Shown here: positions 3,163-46,516 of the stretch, in pieces
Numbering within the stretch: the first letter of the stretch is position 1
How the letters are laid out: each line of letters begins with the position of its first letter
Assembly (NCBI RefSeq): GCF_000302595.1
Contig: NZ_JH947125.1
Location: 952,299 to 1,016,298, forward strand
Direction of reading: 5' to 3'
Length of the DNA: 64,000 nucleotides
Source: Pedobacter arcticus A12
Lineage (GTDB): Bacteria; Bacteroidota; Bacteroidia; Sphingobacteriales; Sphingobacteriaceae
The notes under the pieces: generated by a model
What the model was told of the DNA's origin: nothing
The model's database searches: none
The model's input: the letters and a program-made list of their open reading frames with translations, nothing else
Position numbers and translations under genes: made by a program

Positions 3163-3573
3163 TTAGCAGTATTGCTCAAAAGCACCGATCAAATTGTCGG
3201 CGATCATCTGTGCCGGGCGACCTTCTATTTGGTGGCGCTCAATCATATGCACCAACTTGCCGTCTTTAAATAAAGCCATTGATGGAGACGAAGCAGGAAA
3301 AGGCAACATGTAACCTCTTACAGCATCTACGGCTTCTTTTTCCATACCTGCAAATACAGTTACTAGTTTGTCTGGGTTTTTTGAGCTTGAAGCTGCAATT
3401 TTAGCTGCGGGGCGAGCATTTGCTGCAGCGCATCCACATACCGAATTGATAATTACAAATGTTGTACCTTCTGTACCAATTGCATTTTTCACTTCTTCAG
3501 CGTTCTTTAATTCTTGGAAACCTGCGTCTGTTAATTCTGAACGCATTGGGGCAACTAAATATTCTGGATACAT
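3163..3573 (-). CDS. BrxA/BrxB family bacilliredoxin
   Basis: Thioredoxin-like protein of the YphP/YqiW (formerly DUF1094) family, 136 residues, the normal family length. In Firmicutes, members remove bacillithiol from S-bacillithiolated proteins. The family hallmark CGC active site is present in [13 protein letters not shown] (about residues 45-57), as are a conserved [12 protein letters not shown]-terminus and the FPASSPS segment. It is a single-gene unit with its own inverted-repeat terminator. Role in thiol redox repair is inferred from the family; many Bacteroidetes carry this protein. Confidence 0.93.
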
Positions 3574-4001
3574 TTATTTTGTTTTAGTTTTTAATCAATA
3601 TTTTAACAAAAATCTATACGACTTTGAAACGTTACAAAACTAAACTTTTAGATTGAGCGCTACAATTTTGCCCATCAATTATTTGTCATAAATAAAAGAG
3701 ATTTATATCACTTTTATAATCTAACCGTTTTTTACGATACTTAAACGCATCACAATTTATGGAAGAAAACTGCCGAATAAAAAGCAAAAAAACACTGTTT
3801 AAGTTTGTTTTAGAGAGCTTCATAAACGTTTTATGATTTAGTGTTTATTAATCGTTAAAGAAAGATAACCAATATTAACCTGGTTCGTAGCAAAAATATA
3901 ATGCAATTTTATTAGCTGATTTGACTTGCATAAATAAAACAAAACAACGATGTTTGATTCTATAAAAGATAAAAAGGTCTTTATTGCTTAATTTGATTGC
4001 C
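3574..4001. other. Divergent intergenic region
   Basis: AT-rich 430-bp spacer between the divergent bacilliredoxin and DUF2249 genes; it must hold both promoters. I see no convincing TTTG/TAnnTTTG pair, RNA gene or repeat. Confidence 0.5.
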
Positions 4002-4754
4002 ATGATTGAAAAAACACAGACAGAAGAGTTGGATATGCGAGTGCTTATCCCGATTGAAAGACATAAAAAATTGATACAGCTATTTAAAGAATTGCCCGTT
4101 GAGGAAAGTTTTGTTTTTATTAATGACCATGATCCCATTCCGCTTTATTACGAGTTCCGTTCTATTTACGGCGATGTGGTTGGCTGGGAATACTTAAATA
4201 GGGGCGGTAGAGAATGGAAAGTGAAGGTTACCCGTATTGAGGCTTCGCAGGGACGAGAGTTTACAGATATATCTACTTTGCTTGATCTAAGAAAGGCAAA
4301 TGAGCATGAGTGGAAGCAAATTGTTTTTCACCGTTACGGGATGATGGAACAGGGAGACACCATGGAAATTATCGCTGCCGAAGATCCCAAAGAGATTCAC
4401 GGTATTTTTGTGCAGAAATTTGAAGGGCAACATGCTTGGATTTATAAAAAGCAGGAACCAAACGAGTATGTGGTACATATCACTAAAAAAGACAGTAGCG
4501 GTTTGGGCGACGATGGCTTTTCGGTAGTGAACGAGTTCGATTTACGTCCGTTTCCGCCAACAGAACGCCACGAGATGTTTTATAAAGCTTTTGCTGATAT
4601 AAAGCCCGGTGAAGCTTTTGAATTTATCAACGACCACGACCCGAAACCTTTGTATTACCAGATGGAGGCAGAAAGCAAGGAGCCGTTTAACTGGGAATAT
4701 TTAGAAAAAGGCCCTGAACAGTGGAAAGTAAGGGTTATTAAAACCAATAAATAA
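4002..4754 (+). CDS. DUF2249 domain protein (two DUF2249 copies)
   Basis: The protein has two copies of the DUF2249 fold, roughly residues 10-85 and 180-250. Each carries the family hallmark (F[VE]FINDHDP[IK]PLYY) and ends in WEYL..G...WKV[KR]V. The central part (~90-175) is a further, weaker copy or a linker domain (QGDTMEIIAAEDPKEI). DUF2249 is a TusA-like/hemerythrin-associated domain with an ill-defined role in redox or nitric-oxide related metabolism. I take the ATG at 4002; an in-frame TTG at 3984 would add six residues with no support. The gene is monocistronic with a strong terminator behind it. Confidence 0.85.
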   Translation: MIEKTQTEELDMRVLIPIERHKKLIQLFKELPVEESFVFINDHDPIPLYYEFRSIYGDVVGWEYLNRGGREWKVKVTRIEASQGREFTDISTLLDLRKANEHEWKQIVFHRYGMMEQGDTMEIIAAEDPKEIHGIFVQKFEGQHAWIYKKQEPNEYVVHITKKDSSGLGDDGFSVVNEFDLRPFPPTERHEMFYKAFADIKPGEAFEFINDHDPKPLYYQMEAESKEPFNWEYLEKGPEQWKVRVIKTNK

Positions 4755-36968: not shown

Positions 36969-38687
36969 ATGCCTGAGACAAAAAAACTTCGTATTGCGAT
37001 TATTGGTGGCGGACCAAGTGCATTGTTTATATACAAGCGATTGGTAGAAAGCGAAAAGAAAAATTTTGATATTCATGTTTTCGAAAGAAAGAATAGGCTA
37101 GGAGCCGGAATGCCCTACAGCGAAGATGGGGCTTGTGCCGAACACATAACCAACGTGTCGGATAATGAGATCCCCACGATTGTTAATACGATAGAAGATT
37201 GGGTAAAAAGTGAACCTGCCATTGCTTTAAATTTTAAGGTTACTCCAGCTAATTTTAACGAGTTTAAAGTGCTTCCAAGGTTGCTGTTTGGCGATTACCT
37301 GAGCGCACAGTTTCAGTTGTTGTTGGAGAGAGCAAAACAACAGCTGATTGATACCACGCTACATTTATCTGTTAAAGTGAAGGATTTAATCCATGAAAAA
37401 GAGCGTAATAAAGTTTGGGTTATTACCGAGAACAGAAAGTTGGAGTTTGACCTAGTGGTGATTTCTATCGGGCATTCTTGGCCAATAAAACTGGAAGGGA
37501 AAGTTCCTGGAATCTACGATTCGCCTTACCCACCGTGTAAACTCAATCTGAAACTTAATCATGTTGTGGCTATTAAAGGTTCGTCGTTAACTGCGATTGA
37601 TGCGATAAGAACTTTGTCCAGAAATAATGGATATTTTGAGAAAAAGGCGAACGGAAAATACACTTACAAACTCGACGTAGGGAGTGAGCAGTTTAAATTA
37701 ACCATGCATTCCAGAAGCGGACTTTTACCTGCCGTGAGGTTCCATTTGGAAGATTCGCATTTAAGAAACGATGCATTGTTGACCAAACAGGAAATAGATG
37801 AGCACAGGAAAAAAAACGATGGTTTTGTATCATTGGATTTTATTTTCGAGCAAGATTTCAAAAATCTCTTTATAGAAAAACAACCTGAATTTTATCAGGC
37901 TATAAAAGACCTGTCCATGGAAGAATTTGTGGATTATGTAATGGATTTGAGAGAAAAAGTGGATGCTTTTACTTTGCTTAAAGCGGAGTTTGTAGAAGCA
38001 GAAAAATCGATAGAAAGCAAAGAATCTATTTATTGGAAAGAACTTTTGGGTGTTCTCAGTTTTGCGATGAACCAACCTGCCAAGCATTTTTCGGCAGAAG
38101 ATATGTTGCGTTTGAAAAAGACTTTGATGCCTTTAATTTCTTTGGTGATTGCCTATGTTCCGCAAAGTTCTTGCGAAGATTTAATGGCCTTACATGATGC
38201 TGGAGTTTTGAATATTGTTTCCGTGGGCGATGATAGTGAAGTTATTCCGCAAGAGGATGGAGGTGTAATTTACCAATACAAAGATGAGAACGGTAAAACA
38301 CTAGATGTTAAATATGAAACATTTATTGATTGTGTTGGTCAGGTTGCACTTTCTTATGAAGATTTTCCGTTTAAAAGCTTTTCAGAAAATAAAACAGTTA
38401 GTCAGGCAACGATAGAATTCCAATCACCTGCTGAGGGTTTAAAGTATTTTGATAAAAATCCTGATAAAGTAATCCGTATCAATAATGATTATTATTTAAA
38501 GGTTTCTGGAATCAAAATCAATGATAACTTTCAAATTATAGACGAAGAAGGAAAGAGCAATAATGAAGTTTACATGATGGCCGTTCCATATATCAGTGGT
38601 TATAATCCGGATTATTCGGGACTTGATTTTTGCGAATCAGCTAGTCAGAAAATTGTTGACTGTATTTTGAAGAGGATAGCGCAATAG
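36969..38687 (+). CDS. FAD/NAD(P)-binding protein (NAD_binding_9 family)
   Basis: 572 residues. N-terminal dinucleotide-binding motif IAIIGGGPSALFIYKRL (residues ~8-24), HVFERKNRLGAGMPYS, and a second nucleotide-binding stretch (HVVAIKGSSLTAIDAIRTLSR, ~200). The layout matches the FAD-NAD(P)-binding family PF13454, whose members include hydroxyacylglutathione-like and siderophore or pigment-pathway monooxygenases. Here the reaction is unknown. 114 bp upstream of a secreted beta-helix protein on the same strand. Confidence 0.82.
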   Translation: MPETKKLRIAIIGGGPSALFIYKRLVESEKKNFDIHVFERKNRLGAGMPYSEDGACAEHITNVSDNEIPTIVNTIEDWVKSEPAIALNFKVTPANFNEFKVLPRLLFGDYLSAQFQLLLERAKQQLIDTTLHLSVKVKDLIHEKERNKVWVITENRKLEFDLVVISIGHSWPIKLEGKVPGIYDSPYPPCKLNLKLNHVVAIKGSSLTAIDAIRTLSRNNGYFEKKANGKYTYKLDVGSEQFKLTMHSRSGLLPAVRFHLEDSHLRNDALLTKQEIDEHRKKNDGFVSLDFIFEQDFKNLFIEKQPEFYQAIKDLSMEEFVDYVMDLREKVDAFTLLKAEFVEAEKSIESKESIYWKELLGVLSFAMNQPAKHFSAEDMLRLKKTLMPLISLVIAYVPQSSCEDLMALHDAGVLNIVSVGDDSEVIPQEDGGVIYQYKDENGKTLDVKYETFIDCVGQVALSYEDFPFKSFSENKTVSQATIEFQSPAEGLKYFDKNPDKVIRINNDYYLKVSGIKINDNFQIIDEEGKSNNEVYMMAVPYISGYNPDYSGLDFCESASQKIVDCILKRIAQ

Positions 38688-38801: not shown

Positions 38802-40319
38802 ATGACCAAGTATTTAAGTAGGATTTTTCTGTTTTTAACAGCAGCAGTATTTACATTGTCGTTCATAAACGCTGATTGGCAATCCAAGTTGCTAAAACTA
38901 AATAAGGATGGTACTTTAATTTATTTTCCGGATGAAAATGGAAATATAATCCCAGATTTTAGTAGCGTTGGCTATCAACAGGGAGACCAACCCTTACCAA
39001 ATGTTAAAGTTGTTAAAACAGTTGAAGCTTTACCTAACGCCGATAGTGGAGAACTTATACAGCAAGCGATAAATGAGGTGTCTGGTTTAAAGGCAGATGA
39101 AAACGGACATAGAGGAGCCATCCTGTTAAAAAAGGGAACTTATAAAATTGCAGGTGTTATTAAAATCAAAAAAAGCGGTGTTGTTTTGCGTGGAGAAACA
39201 GGAACGCTTTTAATTGCGACAGGGACTACAAAAAGAAATTTAATAGAGATTTCTGGTGAAGGGAATGCCAAAGAAGTGAAAGGGAGTAGAGTTAAAATGG
39301 AGGAGAGCTACGTACCTGTTGGTGCTAAATCTTTTAAAGTGGAATCGGTAAAAGGATACCAGATTGGCGATGAAATTATTGTTTATAGACCCGCAAGCCA
39401 GCAATGGATTGAAGATCTAAAAATGGATAAAATTGTTGAAGGTGTGGATACAAAGCAATGGGACCCTAAATATTATACTTTCCCCTTTGAGCGAAGAATC
39501 ACAAAAATTAATGGAAATACAATTTCTATAGATAACCCTATTGTAATGGCTATGGAAACCAAGTATGGCGGTGGCGAAGTTTACAAATACAAATTTGAAG
39601 GTAGGATAAGTGAGGTTGGCATCGAAAACTTAAAGATAGAATCTGAATATGTAAGCCCTACAGACGAACAGCATGGATGGATAGCCGTACGATTTGATAA
39701 AGCGGAAAACTGTTGGGTCAAAAACATTGAAACAAAATACTTTGGCTATGCGGCTGTAAGTCTTGAAGACGGAACGAAAAAAATAACAGTTTTAGATTCT
39801 AAATGTTTAGATGCAAAGTCTCAAATTACAGGCGGAAGACGGTACTCGTTCAATAATAATGGACAGCAGAATTTATTCATGAATTTAGAAGCAACGGAAG
39901 GAAGACATGATTATGTGACCGGAGCAAAAACCTTGGGACCGAATGTGTTCTATAACTGCAAAGCTTCAAATGCGCATTCAGATATTGGTCCGCACCACCG
40001 TTGGAGTATGGGTACACTTTATGATAACATCACAACCGACGGAGAAATTAATGTGAGAGACAGGGGCAATTTTGGTACTGGACATGGATGGGCAGGAGTG
40101 AACCAGGTTTTATGGAATTGCAAAGCCAGATCCATTATTCTTCAGAATCCTTACGTAAGCGGTAAAAACTATGCTATCGGTGGTAATGCAAGAAAAAAAA
40201 TTGACACCAGATTTGGTAACCGACCAGATGGCGTATGGGAAGGTTTAAGTAAAGAAGAGCTTAATCCACCGTCTTTATATTTGGCACAGCTTAGAGCCAA
40301 AAATTTAGGAAGAAAATAG
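38802..40319 (+). CDS. Secreted parallel beta-helix protein (polysaccharide lyase-like)
   Basis: 505 residues with a signal peptide (KYLSRIFLFLTAAVFTLSFINA, cleavage ~24). A pectate-lyase-like start (SGELIQQAINEVSGLKADENGHRGAILLKKGTYKI) is followed by right-handed beta-helix coils ~115-430 (ISEVGIENLKIESEY..., AENCWVKNIETKYFGYAAVSLEDGTKKITVLDSKC). GRHDYVTGAKTLGPNVFYNCKASNAHSDIGPHHRWS in the last third contains clustered histidines and aspartates typical of an active cleft. No specific PL/GH family can be named by eye. No SusC/SusD or other polysaccharide-utilisation genes are nearby. Confidence 0.8.
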   Translation: MTKYLSRIFLFLTAAVFTLSFINADWQSKLLKLNKDGTLIYFPDENGNIIPDFSSVGYQQGDQPLPNVKVVKTVEALPNADSGELIQQAINEVSGLKADENGHRGAILLKKGTYKIAGVIKIKKSGVVLRGETGTLLIATGTTKRNLIEISGEGNAKEVKGSRVKMEESYVPVGAKSFKVESVKGYQIGDEIIVYRPASQQWIEDLKMDKIVEGVDTKQWDPKYYTFPFERRITKINGNTISIDNPIVMAMETKYGGGEVYKYKFEGRISEVGIENLKIESEYVSPTDEQHGWIAVRFDKAENCWVKNIETKYFGYAAVSLEDGTKKITVLDSKCLDAKSQITGGRRYSFNNNGQQNLFMNLEATEGRHDYVTGAKTLGPNVFYNCKASNAHSDIGPHHRWSMGTLYDNITTDGEINVRDRGNFGTGHGWAGVNQVLWNCKARSIILQNPYVSGKNYAIGGNARKKIDTRFGNRPDGVWEGLSKEELNPPSLYLAQLRAKNLGRK

Positions 40320-40683: not shown

Positions 40684-41502
40684 ATGGATTCTAGTTTAAA
40701 TAAAGACAAACCTGTAGTAAGGCTAAGGGCTTTTAGGGCAATAGACGACCCTGAAACCTGTAATCTTTTTATTGAGGGCCATACACAGGTACTAACAAAT
40801 ATTGGGGTAACAAAAGTTACATCTTCAAGAAACGAATGGATGTATAACCCAGCTGCTTTTGTGCTTATTGTCGAATCTTTAGACAGAAAAAAAGTATATG
40901 GTGGGGTAAGGATTCATGTTGCGGGTGGTAGTCAACCTCTTCCGATTGAAGAGGCAACAGGTTCTTTAGATCCGGCTATTTATGGTCTTGTATACAATTA
41001 TGCGCAGCAGGGAACAGGTGAGTTTTGTGGTCTTTGGAATTCCAGAGAAATTGCTGGGTATGGTGTGGGCAGTATTTTCTTATCAAGAGCATGCGTTGCT
41101 ATTTCTACCCAAATAGGTTTAAAGTCGATTTTCGCTCTTTGTGCTCCATATACAGTAAAAATGGGTTTAAACTCTGGATATGAAATAGAAACCAGCATAG
41201 GGAATAATGGGACGTTTTATTACCCGAAATTGGATTTAATTGCTACTACGATGCTCCTAAAAGACCCTAATACGTTGGTGAAAGCGGTTGATGAGGAGCG
41301 AGATGCTATATTTAGACTAAGAGAATATTTAAATATTGTTCGCGTTGAGGAGTTAAGAAGGAAACAAATTGAAATTCATTACGAAATTGAAATTGAAGGG
41401 CTTGAAAATTGGGATATGGAAGCTACTATTGCTAATACTTATCTTAGTGAAAAAAACGTTCGCAATTCAAGTATAGAAGAGAATGATTTAAATATACTCT
41501 AA
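40684..41502 (+). CDS. GNAT/autoinducer-synthase-like acyltransferase (tentative)
   Basis: 272 residues, soluble. The core (~15-185) reads as an N-acyltransferase of the LuxI/FeeM/GNAT fold. It starts with VRLRAFRAIDDPETCNLFIEGHTQVL; VYGGVRIHVAGG follows as the central beta-hairpin. EFCGLWNSREIAGYGVGSIFLSRACVAIS resembles the GNAT motif-A loop and following helix, then IGLKSIFALCAPYTVKMGLNSGYE resembles motif B. A charged helical tail ends the protein. No characterised family is recognised with confidence. It is the first gene of a tight operon: 11 bp to a methyltransferase, which is 2 bp from a membrane histidine kinase. Confidence 0.6.
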   Translation: MDSSLNKDKPVVRLRAFRAIDDPETCNLFIEGHTQVLTNIGVTKVTSSRNEWMYNPAAFVLIVESLDRKKVYGGVRIHVAGGSQPLPIEEATGSLDPAIYGLVYNYAQQGTGEFCGLWNSREIAGYGVGSIFLSRACVAISTQIGLKSIFALCAPYTVKMGLNSGYEIETSIGNNGTFYYPKLDLIATTMLLKDPNTLVKAVDEERDAIFRLREYLNIVRVEELRRKQIEIHYEIEIEGLENWDMEATIANTYLSEKNVRNSSIEENDLNIL

Positions 41503-41513
41503 TCAAAAAAAAT

Positions 41514-42272
41514 ATGTCCGAAAAACATTACAATATCAACTATTTAGAAAATACTGGATTATTTTTGAAAAATCTTAAACAACATTCATATCATCCATTT
41601 GAAAAAAAAAGAGGGCCTATTCTGGATTTGGGATGCGGAACAGGGTTAGATGTGATTAAGATGTCTGAACTTTTTCATTCATCTAAGATTATTGGGATAG
41701 ACCATGACCCAGTCATGCTTGAGAAAGGTATAGCTGAGAGCAAAGGCAATCAGAATATTGAATTTATTCAATCAGAATCTGATAATATACCATACAATGA
41801 TGGTTTTTTTGCAGGAATTAGGGCAGAAAGACTAATGCAGCACCTCAAAAATCCTGAAAAAACGATTAGAGAAGTTTATAGGGCGCTTATGCCAGAACAT
41901 CCTTTTGCTATTATTGAAACAGATTGGGCAGGGCTAGTGATTTATAATGAAAATAACGGCATCTCTAATAAAATAAATAAATTTCTTACTGAAGAAAAAA
42001 TAAATAATGGATATGCATCTAGAAAGTTAAGATTCTATCTTAAAGGAGCGGACTTTAAAGATATTAATATTGAAGTTTTTCCTTTTGTATTGAAAAGTTT
42101 AAAAGAAGCGAATGAATATTTATGGTTAGAAATCATCATAAATGAGGCTTCAGAAAAAGGATATCTAACGAAATTGGAAAAAGACTTATTTATTGAATCT
42201 TTAAGAGATGCAGATTCTGAAAATTATTTCGCATGTAGCATTAATATGGTCATAGTTACTAGTGTAAAATAG
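41514..42272 (+). CDS. Class I SAM-dependent methyltransferase
   Basis: 252 residues. SAM-binding motif I ILDLGCGTGLDVIKM (~37-51), acidic motif II IIGIDHDPVMLEKG (~62), motif III FIQSESDNIPYNDGFF, and RAERLMQHLKNPEKTIREVYRALMPEHPFAIIETDW, as in the UbiE/Methyltransf_11 group of small-molecule methyltransferases. The C-terminal region (~140-250) is a substrate-cap helical part. Between the acyltransferase-like gene (11 bp) and the sensor kinase gene (2 bp), so it should act in the same pathway. Confidence 0.9.
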   Translation: MSEKHYNINYLENTGLFLKNLKQHSYHPFEKKRGPILDLGCGTGLDVIKMSELFHSSKIIGIDHDPVMLEKGIAESKGNQNIEFIQSESDNIPYNDGFFAGIRAERLMQHLKNPEKTIREVYRALMPEHPFAIIETDWAGLVIYNENNGISNKINKFLTEEKINNGYASRKLRFYLKGADFKDINIEVFPFVLKSLKEANEYLWLEIIINEASEKGYLTKLEKDLFIESLRDADSENYFACSINMVIVTSVK

Positions 42273-42274
42273 AG

Positions 42275-44413
42275 ATGATATTTAAACGGATATTGGTCTT
42301 ATTGTTTTTCATAACCTTTTTTGTTTCAGCAAAATCCGAAATAATTATTTATCCACAAACAACAAGAGTTTTAATCGGAAAAAACTTAAAGATATCAAAT
42401 TCTAAAGAAGAAGATCCTCTTAGAGTAATTTTTAATAAAGAAACATCGAGTCAGGATGTTCCCAATTTGGGTCTTGTTAGAGAAAATGTATGGATTAAGT
42501 TCACTGTTTTTAATAAGAGTGATGAGTCTAAACTTTTATTGGAGCTTGCTTATCCTTTATTGGATGTTGTAACCTTATATGAAATAACCGAAAAATTTAT
42601 CATTAGAAATTCTTTAAGTGAGAGAAATAATTTTGGAGAAAGAAAATATAACTACCCCACTTACATCTTTGATTTAAATATTCCTAAAGGAACAGAAAAG
42701 ACATATTACCTCCAAATTAAAAGCTCTGAGCAAATTATTATTCCAATATATATAAATAAGCCCGATAGCTTATGGTCTCATTTAAGTTCAGAAAGTGCGC
42801 TAAATGGAATTTACTTAGGGATTGTGCTTATCATGTTCCTATATAATCTATTCGTTTATTTTTCTGTAAAGGATAGGAGCTATCTCTACTATGTTATTTA
42901 TCTCATCTTTGTTGGTTTAACACAACTATCTATCAAAGGTTATACTTTTCAATACTTATGGCCTAATCAGCCAGCATTTACCTCTATAAGCTCTATCGTT
43001 TTTGCATCTTTAAGTGGCATAGGTGCTATTCTTGTAACTAAGAGCTTTCTTCAAACAAAAATTAATACACCTAAATTTGATGTTTTTTTAAAGTTACAGA
43101 TTTTGGTTTTTGTTATTTCTCTTATTAGCTGTCTAATTGACACTCGTACAGGATTTCAAATCATGCAGGTAGGTACCAGTATTACAACTCTTTCAATCCT
43201 TGTGATTTCTTGCATGTTGATGATTCAAGGATATACACCTGCAATTTTCTTTTTCTCCGCATGGTCAATATTAGTTGCTGGAGCTGTAGTTTTTTTGTTG
43301 AAAGACTATAATTTAGTGCAGTATAACATTTTTACAAGTTATTCGATGCAGGCCGCATCTGCGATAGAGATGGCTTTACTATCGTTCGGTTTAGCAGATA
43401 GAATCAACATCCTTAAAAAAGAAAAAGAAGCCTCTCAGGCAGAAGCGCTTGCATCAGCACAAGAAAACGAACGCATCATCAAAGAGCAAAACGTTATCCT
43501 CGAGCAAAAAGTAACAGAGCGGACACACGAGTTAATTGAAACAAATGAAGAATTGAGCGACACGCTGGAGAATCTTAAACAAACCCAAACCCAACTAGTG
43601 GCCGCGGAAAAAATGGCGTCTTTGGGGCAGTTAACAGCAGGGATTGCACATGAGATTAATAACCCTATCAATTTTGTAACCTCTAATGTTTCTCCACTCA
43701 CCAGAGACGTTAATTTATTGCTAGAAGCTATAGACAATATTGAAAGCATTGGTTTGTCCGAGAAGTCTAAATCTGATAAGCAACAGGAGATTGAAGATTA
43801 CAAAGAAGATTTGGATTTTGATTATTTGAAGATAGAGATCAATCACCTGCTTAAAGGTATACATGACGGAGCCTCCAGAACGGCAGAAATTGTTAAAGGT
43901 CTAAGAGTTTTTTCTCGCTTAGATGAAGATGATTTAAAAAAGGCGGATATCAATGAGGGCTTAGATTCTACTTTAATTATCATGAATAACGCATTGAGTA
44001 GCGGTAAAATCAAGGTTATTAAAGAATATGGCAACATTCCTACTGCCGAGTGTTATCCGGGAAAACTTAATCAGGTATTTCTAAATATAATTTCCAACGC
44101 TATCCATGCCGTTACTAAAGTGCATGGTGAAAGTGGGGAAGGTGAGCTTAAAATCTCTACAGAAAGTAGAGAAGAAAATATCTACGTTACCATTAAAGAC
44201 AATGGTTCGGGAATGGATGACGTAACTAAAGGTAAAATATTTGATCCGTTTTTTACTACTAAAGATGTTGGAGAAGGTACAGGATTGGGGATGTCTATTG
44301 CCTATAACACCATTAAAAACCATCATGGTGAAATTTTGATCAACAGCGAAATTGGGAAAGGCACCGAAATGATCATTCAAATTCCAATAATCTATAAAAT
44401 AATTTTAGTATAA
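42275..44413 (+). CDS. 7TMR-DISM membrane histidine kinase
   Basis: 712 residues. Signal peptide (~1-22), then periplasmic 7TMR-DISM extracellular domain type 2 (~25-170: GKNLKISNSKEEDPLRVIFN, NLGLVRENVWIKFTV, YYLQIKSSEQ). Seven membrane helices (~175-375) follow, then a coiled coil (~385-440), HisKA with H-box LTAGIAHEINNPINFV (phospho-acceptor His at ~459), and HATPase_c with N-box NIISNAIHAV, G1 DNGSGM, G2 GEGTGLGMSIAYN. A full sensor kinase for a small ligand or surface signal. No receiver is fused; two downstream genes supply receivers. Confidence 0.93.
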   Translation: MIFKRILVLLFFITFFVSAKSEIIIYPQTTRVLIGKNLKISNSKEEDPLRVIFNKETSSQDVPNLGLVRENVWIKFTVFNKSDESKLLLELAYPLLDVVTLYEITEKFIIRNSLSERNNFGERKYNYPTYIFDLNIPKGTEKTYYLQIKSSEQIIIPIYINKPDSLWSHLSSESALNGIYLGIVLIMFLYNLFVYFSVKDRSYLYYVIYLIFVGLTQLSIKGYTFQYLWPNQPAFTSISSIVFASLSGIGAILVTKSFLQTKINTPKFDVFLKLQILVFVISLISCLIDTRTGFQIMQVGTSITTLSILVISCMLMIQGYTPAIFFFSAWSILVAGAVVFLLKDYNLVQYNIFTSYSMQAASAIEMALLSFGLADRINILKKEKEASQAEALASAQENERIIKEQNVILEQKVTERTHELIETNEELSDTLENLKQTQTQLVAAEKMASLGQLTAGIAHEINNPINFVTSNVSPLTRDVNLLLEAIDNIESIGLSEKSKSDKQQEIEDYKEDLDFDYLKIEINHLLKGIHDGASRTAEIVKGLRVFSRLDEDDLKKADINEGLDSTLIIMNNALSSGKIKVIKEYGNIPTAECYPGKLNQVFLNIISNAIHAVTKVHGESGEGELKISTESREENIYVTIKDNGSGMDDVTKGKIFDPFFTTKDVGEGTGLGMSIAYNTIKNHHGEILINSEIGKGTEMIIQIPIIYKIILV

Positions 44414-44464: not shown

Positions 44465-45550
44465 ATGTCAGAAAAGATCAAGATATTATATTTAGATGAT
44501 GAACTCAATAACTTAATTGGGTTTAAAGCCTCTTTAAGGTTGGATTATATCATTTATACCGCACAAAATTCTACCGAAGCCTTAGCCTACCTTGATAAAA
44601 ACCCCGATATAAGGGTTATCTTTTGCGATCAACGGATGCCCGAAAAAACTGGAGTAGAATTTTTTGAAGAAGTGAGAAGTATTCACCCGCATCCGATAAG
44701 AATTCTTTTAACAGCTTACGCCGATATAGAATCTGTTATAGATGCCATCAACAGAGGTAACGTTTTTAGGTATGTAAAAAAACCTTGGTTAGACACAGAT
44801 ATTATTTCTGCCATAGAAGAGTCCAATAAGTTCTATTTGGCAAATTCTATGTTGAGCATGAAAAACGAAGAACTACGAAAGGCTTATTTAGAGCTGGATA
44901 AATTTGCCTACAGCGTGAGCCATGATATTAGAGGACCCCTTGTAGGAATTTCGGGAGGAGTTGACCTTGCACTGCAAAGCAATAACATTGATGAAATAAA
45001 GGAGATTTTATTGTTGATGGAAAAGTCTGTGACCAAATTAGATACCTTTATTTTAAGTATGCATGATTATTACAGTTTGGAAAGGGGCGAATTAAAGATA
45101 ACAGCAATTGATTTTAATGAAGTTGTAAAAGAAACCGAGGCCATATTTGCCATTTATGCCAAAACAGCGCAGATAGATTTTAAAATTAATGTTAGGCAAA
45201 ATGAACCGTTCTGGAGTGATGTAATATCTATTAATCTAATTATTAATAACCTGCTAACAAATGCTTTTAAATATCAAAGAAAGGGTGCAGATAACAAAAA
45301 AGTAACCTTAGATATTGAAGTGTTTAGAGGGTCTGTTACCATAGCTGTTGGTGATAACGGGACCGGAATAGAGGGAAAATACATAGATGAGATTTTTAAC
45401 CTATTCTTTAGGGCCAGTATTCAGGAGTCGGGTTCTGGCTTAGGATTGTTTAACGTTAAGAGTTCGGTGTTAAAATTGAATGGTACAATAGATGTAAATT
45501 CTGTTTTAGATGAAGGAACTACATTTACAGTTGTTATACCCCATAAATAA
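44465..45550 (+). CDS. Hybrid response regulator - histidine kinase
   Basis: 361 residues. Receiver domain first (~4-120; acidic pair DD at 11-12, phospho-acceptor Asp55 in IFCDQRMPEKTG, Lys106). A linker helix and HisKA (H-box AYSVSHDIRGPLVG, His153) follow, then HATPase_c (NNLLTNAFKYQ, GDNGTGI, SGSGLGLF). Receiver-first kinases typically receive phosphate from another kinase and pass it on. The receiver is closely related to the one encoded at 46052-46516. 51 bp after the 7TMR kinase gene. Confidence 0.92.
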   Translation: MSEKIKILYLDDELNNLIGFKASLRLDYIIYTAQNSTEALAYLDKNPDIRVIFCDQRMPEKTGVEFFEEVRSIHPHPIRILLTAYADIESVIDAINRGNVFRYVKKPWLDTDIISAIEESNKFYLANSMLSMKNEELRKAYLELDKFAYSVSHDIRGPLVGISGGVDLALQSNNIDEIKEILLLMEKSVTKLDTFILSMHDYYSLERGELKITAIDFNEVVKETEAIFAIYAKTAQIDFKINVRQNEPFWSDVISINLIINNLLTNAFKYQRKGADNKKVTLDIEVFRGSVTIAVGDNGTGIEGKYIDEIFNLFFRASIQESGSGLGLFNVKSSVLKLNGTIDVNSVLDEGTTFTVVIPHK

Positions 45551-45658: not shown

Positions 45659-46063
45659 ATGAAATTGTCATTTATAATTATAGACGATAGGGAGCTAGAC
45701 TGTTATATAGCAGAAAAAATTATCCAGAAAACAGGATTAAGTACAGACAATAAGATATTTTATGATGCTTTTTCTGGTCTAAATTTTATTAAAAACACTC
45801 CTGTAACAGACAGTATTATAATTGTTCTTTTAGATATTATGATGCCCGTTATGAATGGCTTCCAATTTATGGAAGCGTTTGAGAAACTACCTGAAGAAAT
45901 TAAAAATAATTATAGAATTGTAGCAATAACAACTTCTTTAAATAAAAATGATATCAGCGAAATTTCCAGCTACAAATCGGTTATTGGTGTTCTAAAAAAG
46001 CCTTACCCCTCCGAAGCATTGGTTAAGGTTTTGCAAATAATAACCGGAGACTTAGGACAGTAA
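45659..46063 (+). CDS. Single-domain response regulator
   Basis: 134 residues, receiver domain only: acidic pair D9-D10 (IIIDDRELDCYIAEKI), phospho-acceptor Asp59 in LLDIMMPVMNGFQF, Thr ~92 region (VAITTSLNKND) and Lys ~114 (GVLKKPYPSEAL). With no output domain it may serve as an intermediate in a relay or as a protein-interaction switch. Its last 12 bases overlap the end of the convergent receiver gene. Confidence 0.93.
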   Translation: MKLSFIIIDDRELDCYIAEKIIQKTGLSTDNKIFYDAFSGLNFIKNTPVTDSIIIVLLDIMMPVMNGFQFMEAFEKLPEEIKNNYRIVAITTSLNKNDISEISSYKSVIGVLKKPYPSEALVKVLQIITGDLGQ

Positions 46064-46516
46064 CTTTTGGCGTAATAAAAACTCTAACTGGTCATTAGAA
46101 GTAGCAAGTTTTCCGTTCATACTTTCTAGCTCTCTTTTTTCTAGAAGAACCTCATACGCTCTATTGATACTGATATCCAATTCTTCTTCATTCCAAGGCT
46201 TGGTTAGGTAATGAAATATTTTACCTTTGTTTACAGCATCAACTACGGCGCCCATATCTGCATATCCTGTCAATAAAATACGCATAGGATCAGGATGCGT
46301 TTCTAAAACTTTTTCCAAAAATTGCACTCCGGTCATCTGAGGCATTCTTTGGTCTGTAATAATAATATCTACAGCGCTTTTCTCTAATATTTTCAAAGCC
46401 TCATCACCACTTATTGCAATAAAAACCTTGTATTTTAGTCTAAAATTAGCTTTGAATGATATAAGATTGTTCTCTTCATCATCAACGTAAAGTATAGCGA
46501 TTTTTTTGTCTACCAT
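46052..46516 (-). CDS. Receiver-domain protein paralogous to the hybrid kinase receiver
   Basis: 154 residues. Receiver (~6-125) with DD at 12-13, phospho-acceptor Asp55 (IIITDQRMPQMTG), Lys ~106 in YLTKPWNEEEL. The ~30-residue tail is a coiled coil (LEKRELESMNGKLATSNDQLEFLLRQ). Receiver sequence is nearly parallel to the hybrid kinase one (Y.DDE.NNLI.FKA..RL.Y..). No DNA-binding or enzymatic output. It converges on the single-domain regulator gene with a 12-bp overlap. Confidence 0.92.
   Translation of the reverse strand: MVDKKIAILYVDDEENNLISFKANFRLKYKVFIAISGDEALKILEKSAVDIIITDQRMPQMTGVQFLEKVLETHPDPMRILLTGYADMGAVVDAVNKGKIFHYLTKPWNEEELDISINRAYEVLLEKRELESMNGKLATSNDQLEFLLRQKLLS

Follow-up and report, generated by a model that had tools for sequence, protein, structure and literature searches.

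Background

Among described biosynthetic pathways, those for N-acyl oxazolones come closest to the genes considered here. Rv1355c (TrzS) and its neighbour Rv1356c (TrzA) jointly produce N-acyl tryptazolones. Tryptophan is acylated by TrzA; the N-acyl tryptophan is then cyclised with ATP by the ThiF part of TrzS and desaturated with O2 by the flavin part of that protein (PMC12856293). Acid was found to hydrolyse the oxazolones, and methanol to cause their alcoholysis (PMC12856293). Tyrazolones are produced by TyzACB, and models of TyzA and OxzA have been compared with structures of FeeM and BjaI (PMC10404671), the same two that recur below. The role of oxazolones was called a major unresolved question by the 2025 authors, who noted the likeness to acyl-homoserine lactones and pointed out cyclic di-GMP genes beside trzAS (PMC12856293). 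Here we describe a locus of Pedobacter arcticus A12 in which the gene of a candidate N-acyl amino acid synthase shares an operon with the genes of a methyltransferase and a 7TMR-DISM sensor histidine kinase. It lies in a 64,000-nucleotide stretch of contig NZ_JH947125.1 (positions 952,299 to 1,016,298), hereafter the window, from a genome of 4.23 Mb in 16 contigs.

The three-gene operon is real, and it is the core of a module that is widespread in Bacteroidota. The middle position of the module, which we call the tailoring slot, is filled by different enzymes in different genomes, and the tailoring enzyme and the receptor's ligand half have travelled jointly among modules that are stable in their other parts. 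We propose, with a probability of roughly 0.65, that the module both produces and senses a small molecule of acylated amino-acid type, with the slot enzyme and the receptor half exchanged together.

Results

A conserved acyltransferase-kinase operon

All three genes are on the + strand, separated by 11 and 2 bp. The first encodes a 272-amino-acid acyltransferase (AT; 40684..41502), identified from its open reading frame (ORF), predicted fold and conserved residues. It is followed by a class I S-adenosylmethionine methyltransferase of 252 amino acids (MT; 41514..42272), the slot enzyme of this locus, and by the 712-amino-acid kinase (HK; 42275..44413). This arrangement had been reported in the first-pass annotation of the window, and its assignments for the second and third genes hold. 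MT matches Pfam Methyltransf_31/25/11 at E-values of about 1e-15 to 4e-14. The kinase combines a periplasmic ligand domain, 7TMR-DISMED2 (residues 56-160, 42440..42754; E 2.9e-22, 79.5 bits, cut-off 22), with 7TMR-DISM_7TM (residues 174-376, 42794..43402; E 3.8e-48, 164.6 bits, cut-off 29) and a HisKA + HATPase_c core (residues 450-704, 43622..44386). HATPase_c scores 75.9 bits (E 4.3e-21, cut-off 26.4) and HisKA 22.3 bits (E 1.4e-4), under its cut-off of 26.9. The three parts together identify the protein as a 7TMR-DISM sensor histidine kinase.

A scan of one bacterial genome collection found the AT gene in 66 loci. Of 201 genomes drawn from the same family, 106 have it, as do 13 of 395 drawn from the phylum; both counts include the genome of the window. 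We read the gene order of 159 loci: the window itself, these 66, a further 12 taken from the phylum sample, and 80 from other family-positive genomes; after merging the 15 whose AT domain was identical to another's, 144 distinct loci remained. Among the positives of the family search, the neighbourhoods of 80 plus 3 were opened and those of 22 were not.

A same-strand 7TMR-DISM kinase adjoins AT, directly or past the slot gene, in 141 of the 144 distinct loci. Two of the remaining three (L052 and L064) end at contig boundaries, and one, L195, is a true exception. In the phylum sample the kinase was present at all 12 loci other than our own. The genome of the window holds only two 7TMR-DISM_7TM genes, the other one being a 35-bit match on a different contig, which makes adjacency by chance negligible. 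A neighbourhood survey had been suggested earlier as a test of the signalling idea, and it finds the gene set conserved and widespread. Outside the module, no gene cluster recurs in more than 14 of the 66 loci.

The tailoring slot

We assigned slot labels with our own profiles. A ThiF protein fills the slot in 113 of the 144 loci, fused to a nitroreductase-type (flavin oxidase) domain in 61 and alone in 52. A class I methyltransferase of the window's type is found in 27. Two loci carry an ICMT-family methyltransferase (Pfam PF04140, E 1.5e-19 and 3.5e-18), one (L205, 5207-6844, - strand) has a FAD_binding_4 oxidase between AT and the kinase, and in L064 the slot is cut off by the contig end. 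With only 27 distinct loci, the methyltransferase is ruled out as the defining part of the module. The first-pass annotation had seen in acyltransferase plus methyltransferase the toolkit for a signal; the acyltransferase half of that idea stands, while the methyltransferase proves to be one of several interchangeable enzymes, of which ThiF is the commonest. Locus L199 has a second ORF matching the oxidase domain, either an extra copy or part of a split gene, between its ThiF-oxidase gene and the kinase.

The AlphaFold model of MT has a predicted local distance difference test score (pLDDT) of 89.1, and its top structure is 3mgg. Among its ten best Foldseek rows are LahSB, OxaG and JHAMT, together with methyltransferases of other kinds; the matches are many and tied, and do not favour one methylation site. 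LahSB and JHAMT are carboxyl methyltransferases.

Slot enzyme and receptor half move together

We compared the histories of the module's parts using quick IQ-TREE searches under LG+G4, with the limits of the sensor, 7TM and core taken from the Pfam borders of the window's kinase; the AT tree carries a warning of long branches meeting. A kinase of at least 600 amino acids is present in 138 loci, 132 of which also have the partner gene RECHK described below. The order AT-slot-HK occurs in 88 loci, and 83 loci of this order were thinned to 67 for clade tests.

On the AT tree the slot types require 29 changes, compared with a mean of 64.9 for shuffled labels, and the class I methyltransferase label requires 14, at least 6 of them forced by well-supported branches. 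The window, a methyltransferase locus, groups there with three ThiF-oxidase loci (support 94, not starred). Over the compared columns its AT is 87% identical to that of L004, from Pedobacter puniceum, and 86% identical to that of L002, both of which carry ThiF-oxidase. The difference between the window and L004 is 13% in AT, 16% in the coiled coil, 27% in the kinase core and 30% in RECHK, and rises to 62% in the 7TM domain and 67% in the sensor. Between the window and L137, which also has a methyltransferase, AT differs by 19%, the core by 29% and the 7TM domain by 31%. Along the kinase, identity between the window and L004 jumps from 47% in the segment starting at residue 334 to 77% in that starting at 364. 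The exchanged half, which includes the DISMED2 domain, thus has its 3' limit at a breakpoint around residue 360, in the last part of the 7TM domain.

The same pattern holds more widely. For pairs of loci with an AT distance of 0.1-0.2, which are not independent of one another, the 7TM domain differs by 31% when the slots are the same (79 pairs) and by 69% when they are different (35 pairs); the corresponding values for the core are 28% and 30%. Over the 132 loci, where shuffled labels for all types require 59-60 changes, the fewest changes for all slot types, and for methyltransferase versus the rest, are 25 and 11 on the AT tree, 29 and 14 on that of the kinase core, and 28 and 15 on that of RECHK. 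The corresponding values are 13 and 1 for the sensor, and 9 and 1 for both the 7TM domain and the sensor and 7TM combined.

In the combined sensor and 7TM tree of the 67 thinned loci, the 20 methyltransferase loci form one clade, with a Shimodaira-Hasegawa-like approximate likelihood ratio (SH-aLRT) support of 99.8. For the same loci a single methyltransferase clade is rejected by the approximately unbiased (AU) test for the kinase core (p 0.0058) and for AT (p 0.00014); the core is not swapped with the slot. Distances between the methyltransferase genes of 24 loci track those of the 7TM domain (r 0.90) and the sensor (0.87) best, compared with 0.65 for AT, 0.57 for the core and 0.58 for RECHK. 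Three positions separate methyltransferase-type from ThiF-type kinases; all are in the 7TM domain, and they are too few to name a pocket. From the co-segregation on trees, the clade tests and the methyltransferase-gene distances we conclude that the tailoring enzyme and the ligand half of the receptor moved as a unit. Such co-segregation is what a receptor for the tailored product should leave behind. It suggests, without proving it, that the locus synthesises and senses a signal, as the first-pass annotation had proposed; the fold of AT and the conserved co-occurrence point the same way.

The acyltransferase fold

At E up to 1, neither Pfam nor NCBIfam gives a match for the window's AT, and PDB sequences lend no support. 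From 43 sequences AlphaFold gives a confident model (pLDDT 90.9, predicted template modelling score 0.87), and the structure check bears out the LuxI/FeeM/GNAT-like core attributed to the protein earlier. The ten best Foldseek rows against the PDB are BjaI, FeeM, RpaI and MesI (E 2.0e-6 to 4.3e-6), with GCN5-type acetyltransferases after them. Structural re-alignment gives Z 16.9 with FeeM (2g0b_A; root-mean-square deviation 2.6, 179 residues), 16.4 with BjaI over 199 residues, 15.6 with LasI over 182 and 13.0 with EsaI; the plain GNAT protein ElaA reaches 15.7 over 145. The aligned extent is 145-146 residues for plain GNATs versus 182-203 for LasI and BjaI. The model thus indicates an acyltransferase of the GNAT superfamily, with FeeM and LuxI proteins nearest in extent.

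The likeness is one of fold. Identity in the structural alignments to FeeM and to BjaI and LasI is about 10-12%, and none of the 43 aligned AT members matches an autoinducer-synthase or FeeM model of Pfam at E up to 0.1; six match Acetyltransf_1, with a best E of 1.2e-4. A LuxI or FeeM identity by sequence was accordingly rejected. A comparison with PEP-CTERM acyltransferases, suggested earlier, led nowhere: the lack of any NCBIfam match for the window's AT extends to this family, and no PEP-CTERM/exosortase acyltransferase is among the three NCBIfam families matched by any of the 43 members. W52, G112, E113, C115, G116, L117 and W118 are invariant in the 43 sequences and R76 is nearly so. Their order is reminiscent of that in which W, R and E occur in LuxI proteins. 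The closest named relatives of AT are from Pedobacter, at 80-81% identity, and a search for relatives on plasmids gave no match. In L120 (7474-8265, + strand), an ICMT-type locus, the region of G112, E113 and C115 reads AAELSGLWNS, so that two otherwise invariant residues differ.

Link to N-acyl oxazolone chemistry

The ThiF proteins connect the module to known chemistry. Against the NCBIfam model of the Rv1355c family (NF005901, cut-off 476), the long ThiF form scores 833.8 bits and two short forms score 467.5 and 449, slightly under the cut-off. In the phylum sample this family (E up to 1e-50) is found in 9 of the 395 genomes, all of them among the 13 that have AT. The window's relatives therefore show a ThiF or ThiF-oxidase protein beside an acyltransferase, the pairing of the oxazolone pathway. 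The window's own genome has no match to the family at E up to 1e-3, its slot holding the methyltransferase. Residues invariant in all seven ThiF parts compared (four from Bacteroidota, three actinobacterial) include D164-F-D166, R175 and C233-D234, which are not mapped to Asp217, the mutated residue reported in TrzS (PMC12856293). In a comparison with AT, the ORF in the TrzA position ranked first among those of three loci, at E 0.1.

We opened eight mycobacterial, rhodococcal and nocardial plasmid loci around Rv1355c-family matches. Five have a TrzA-like protein, and it is absent from the three Mycobacteriaceae loci, so that a linked acyltransferase is not universal there. At each of the four Rhodococcus plasmid loci opened (L124, L127, L129 and L130, out of six Rhodococcus records found), a GGDEF gene adjoins the TrzA-position and Rv1355c-family genes; this association is a separate signalling link of oxazolone genes. 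ThiF proteins on Streptomyces plasmids (L122, 5155-8069; L123, 5929-7727) are 46.5% and 41.4% identical to the Bacteroidota query over about 45% of its length, with a beta-ketoacyl-ACP synthase 3 or a GNAT protein as neighbour. The mycobacterial and rhodococcal plasmid proteins, at 33-37%, fall below them.

Phosphorelay genes and surroundings

Two-component genes follow the operon directly, as had been noted before. RECHK (44465..45550, + strand), a conserved partner of 361 amino acids, has REC, HisKA and HATPase domains; REC1 (45659..46063, + strand) is a stand-alone receiver without a matched output domain; and REC2 (46052..46516, - strand) is a second such receiver, convergent in the window and located 5' of the module in other loci. 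No Pfam DNA-binding domain was matched in the phosphorelay proteins of the module. In L121 a REC-PAS-HisKA_3-HATPase protein (3244-4653, + strand) takes the place of the usual RECHK. The Bacteroidota-type promoter pattern occurs 8 times in the window against 7.0 expected, with none 5' of AT, and was set aside as uninformative.

Upstream of the module and outside it, 38802-40319 (+ strand) encodes a 505-amino-acid protein that is not matched by Pfam and resembles, weakly and over part of its length, a model for BT3328-type hyaluronic acid lyase. The gene at 36969-38687 (+ strand) encodes a FAD-NAD(P)-binding protein (NAD_binding_9) with a partial PRK09897 match under the cut-off, and the neighbourhood listing of module loci contains no relatives of it. 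In the kinase-less locus L195 (1965-7412, - strand), a 622-amino-acid protein with a sub-threshold pentapeptide-repeat match is encoded downstream.

Discussion

A proposed mechanism

Its fold, and the TrzS-like protein that accompanies it in relatives, suggest that AT would acylate the amine of an amino acid. The slot enzyme would then tailor the N-acyl amino acid. In most relatives the ring of an oxazolone would be closed by a ThiF protein, and in the window MT may methylate the same intermediate, most simply at the carboxylate. The carboxylate is suggested by ThiF proteins, which activate this group, and by ICMT-family enzymes, which methylate it. The co-segregation suggests that the sensor and 7TM half of the co-encoded kinase reads the product, and operon and domain content that the kinase would signal through RECHK to the two receivers. 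These steps of synthesis, capping and sensing are predicted from sequence. A swap of slot enzyme and receptor half would alter signal and receptor jointly, as in pherotype systems. Extended to the whole phylum, this would make the module a pherotype-like signalling family with a common N-acyl amino acid, made by one acyltransferase lineage, and a co-exchanged receptor ligand half, a reading to which we give about even odds. In that reading the interchangeable enzymes (an oxazolone cyclase with or without oxidase, a class I methyltransferase, an ICMT-like methyltransferase and a FAD oxidase) would convert the common compound into different signals.

Several observations weigh against a module that makes and senses its own product. 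Regarding the enzymes, the plain GNAT structure 1xeb ties with BjaI (Z 16.4, over 146 residues); hhalign gives AT a probability of 4% (E 0.01, 175 collinear columns) against five actinobacterial TrzA-position proteins; and the FAD oxidase of L205 is a misfit with strict carboxylate capping. L195 pairs AT with ThiF-oxidase without a kinase nearby. The periplasmic sensor evolves fast within a slot type, the window differing by 62% from L137, almost as much as from L004. In the ThiF loci, distances of the ThiF gene agree better with those of the kinase core (r 0.83 and 0.82) than with those of the 7TM domain (0.73 and 0.74), so that co-segregation is seen between slot types only. Unlike cassettes lack shared homology and can recombine in conserved flanks only; physical linkage may thereby add to the co-segregation, and hitchhiking may look like coupling. 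Finally, in the studied actinobacteria cells contained more of the tryptazolones than the supernatant did, and acyl-tryptophan was found mainly outside (PMC12856293).

That last finding suits an alternative in which the product stays in the membrane or periplasm of its producer and the kinase gauges a lipid, for stress or envelope state, with no role between cells. A hydrophobic ligand would fit a 7TM receptor, and no exporter or other outside gene recurs in more than 14 of the 66 loci. Repeated exchange of enzyme and receptor half, however, looks like the changing of a private code, needless for an internal gauge, and we consider this explanation unlikely. We think it more doubtful still that the kinase senses some other cue and merely controls synthesis of a metabolite such as an antibiotic or lipid. 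Kinases are often encoded beside biosynthetic genes that they control, and Stieleria N-acyl tyrosine derivatives have antimicrobial activity (PMC12856293), but under purely regulatory linkage the ligand half should not follow the enzyme, and it does: methyltransferase versus the rest needs a single change on the sensor and 7TM trees and 14 on that of the core. That no DNA-binding domain of Pfam was matched in the module's proteins also speaks against it.

The least probable alternative, to which we give little credence, is that the slot gene travels with the 5' half of the kinase gene simply as its neighbour between conserved recombination flanks, the ligand being unrelated. The AT-slot-HK order of 88 loci does put the slot gene before that half, the breakpoint near residue 360 is sharp, and coupling is not seen within the ThiF loci. 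Yet the sensor and 7TM halves of the 20 methyltransferase loci form one clade, unlike their AT and cores, the kinase is kept in 141 of 144 loci, and repeated spread of the unit calls for a reason. We prefer the proposal that the module senses what it makes. If this is true, Bacteroidota would possess a signalling system of their own, based on small molecules and with naturally occurring variants of specificity, and the pherotype-like reading would supply receptors for N-acyl oxazolones, for which we found none described in the open-licence literature. The conserved kinase beside oxazolone-type genes is a concrete candidate receptor that bears on the role of N-acyl oxazolones, and the module makes that role testable in environmental bacteria.

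Comparison with known systems

The first-pass annotation could not match the system to a described family. For the module as a whole this stands: open-licence literature yielded no description of it or of oxazolone synthesis together with a kinase, and in that literature texts containing '7TMR-DISM' and texts with oxazolone-pathway terms do not overlap. It does not stand for the biosynthetic half, which resembles synthesis of the TrzAS/TyzACB type. In TrzAS, TyzACB and OxzAB, too, the acyltransferase has a fold like that of FeeM and BjaI, and its neighbour is a ThiF cyclase that may or may not come with a flavin oxidase (PMC12856293, PMC10404671). The window differs in having a methyltransferase instead of ThiF, and the module in having a kinase, a word absent from both of these reports. 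FeeM, BjaI and LasI share the fold of AT and differ from it in sequence, with no family match at that low identity. In the stieleriacine clusters of Stieleria, the genes around those of N-acyl amino acid synthases encode a methyltransferase, a ThiF protein and a nitroreductase (PMC12479983); these clusters differ in that 'histidine kinase' and 'two-component' do not occur in the portion of that paper searched.

A synthase gene beside a membrane kinase is itself known. LuxM-LuxN and AinS-AinR each join the gene of an acyl-transfer synthase to that of a multi-transmembrane sensor kinase that reads the product; they use another synthase family and receptor domain, have no known separate tailoring enzyme and are not known from Bacteroidota. 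Oxazolone synthesis is known as well, and it is the combination that we find undescribed in open-licence literature. The exchange of specificity has its nearest counterpart in ComQXPA of Bacillus, a polymorphic locus of modifying enzyme, signal and receptor whose comQ and gyrA trees are incongruent (PMC4408185); there the signal is a peptide, the host Gram-positive and the proteins unrelated. With quorum-sensing systems at large the module shares the genetic coupling of synthase and receptor, which in our case are probably cognate.

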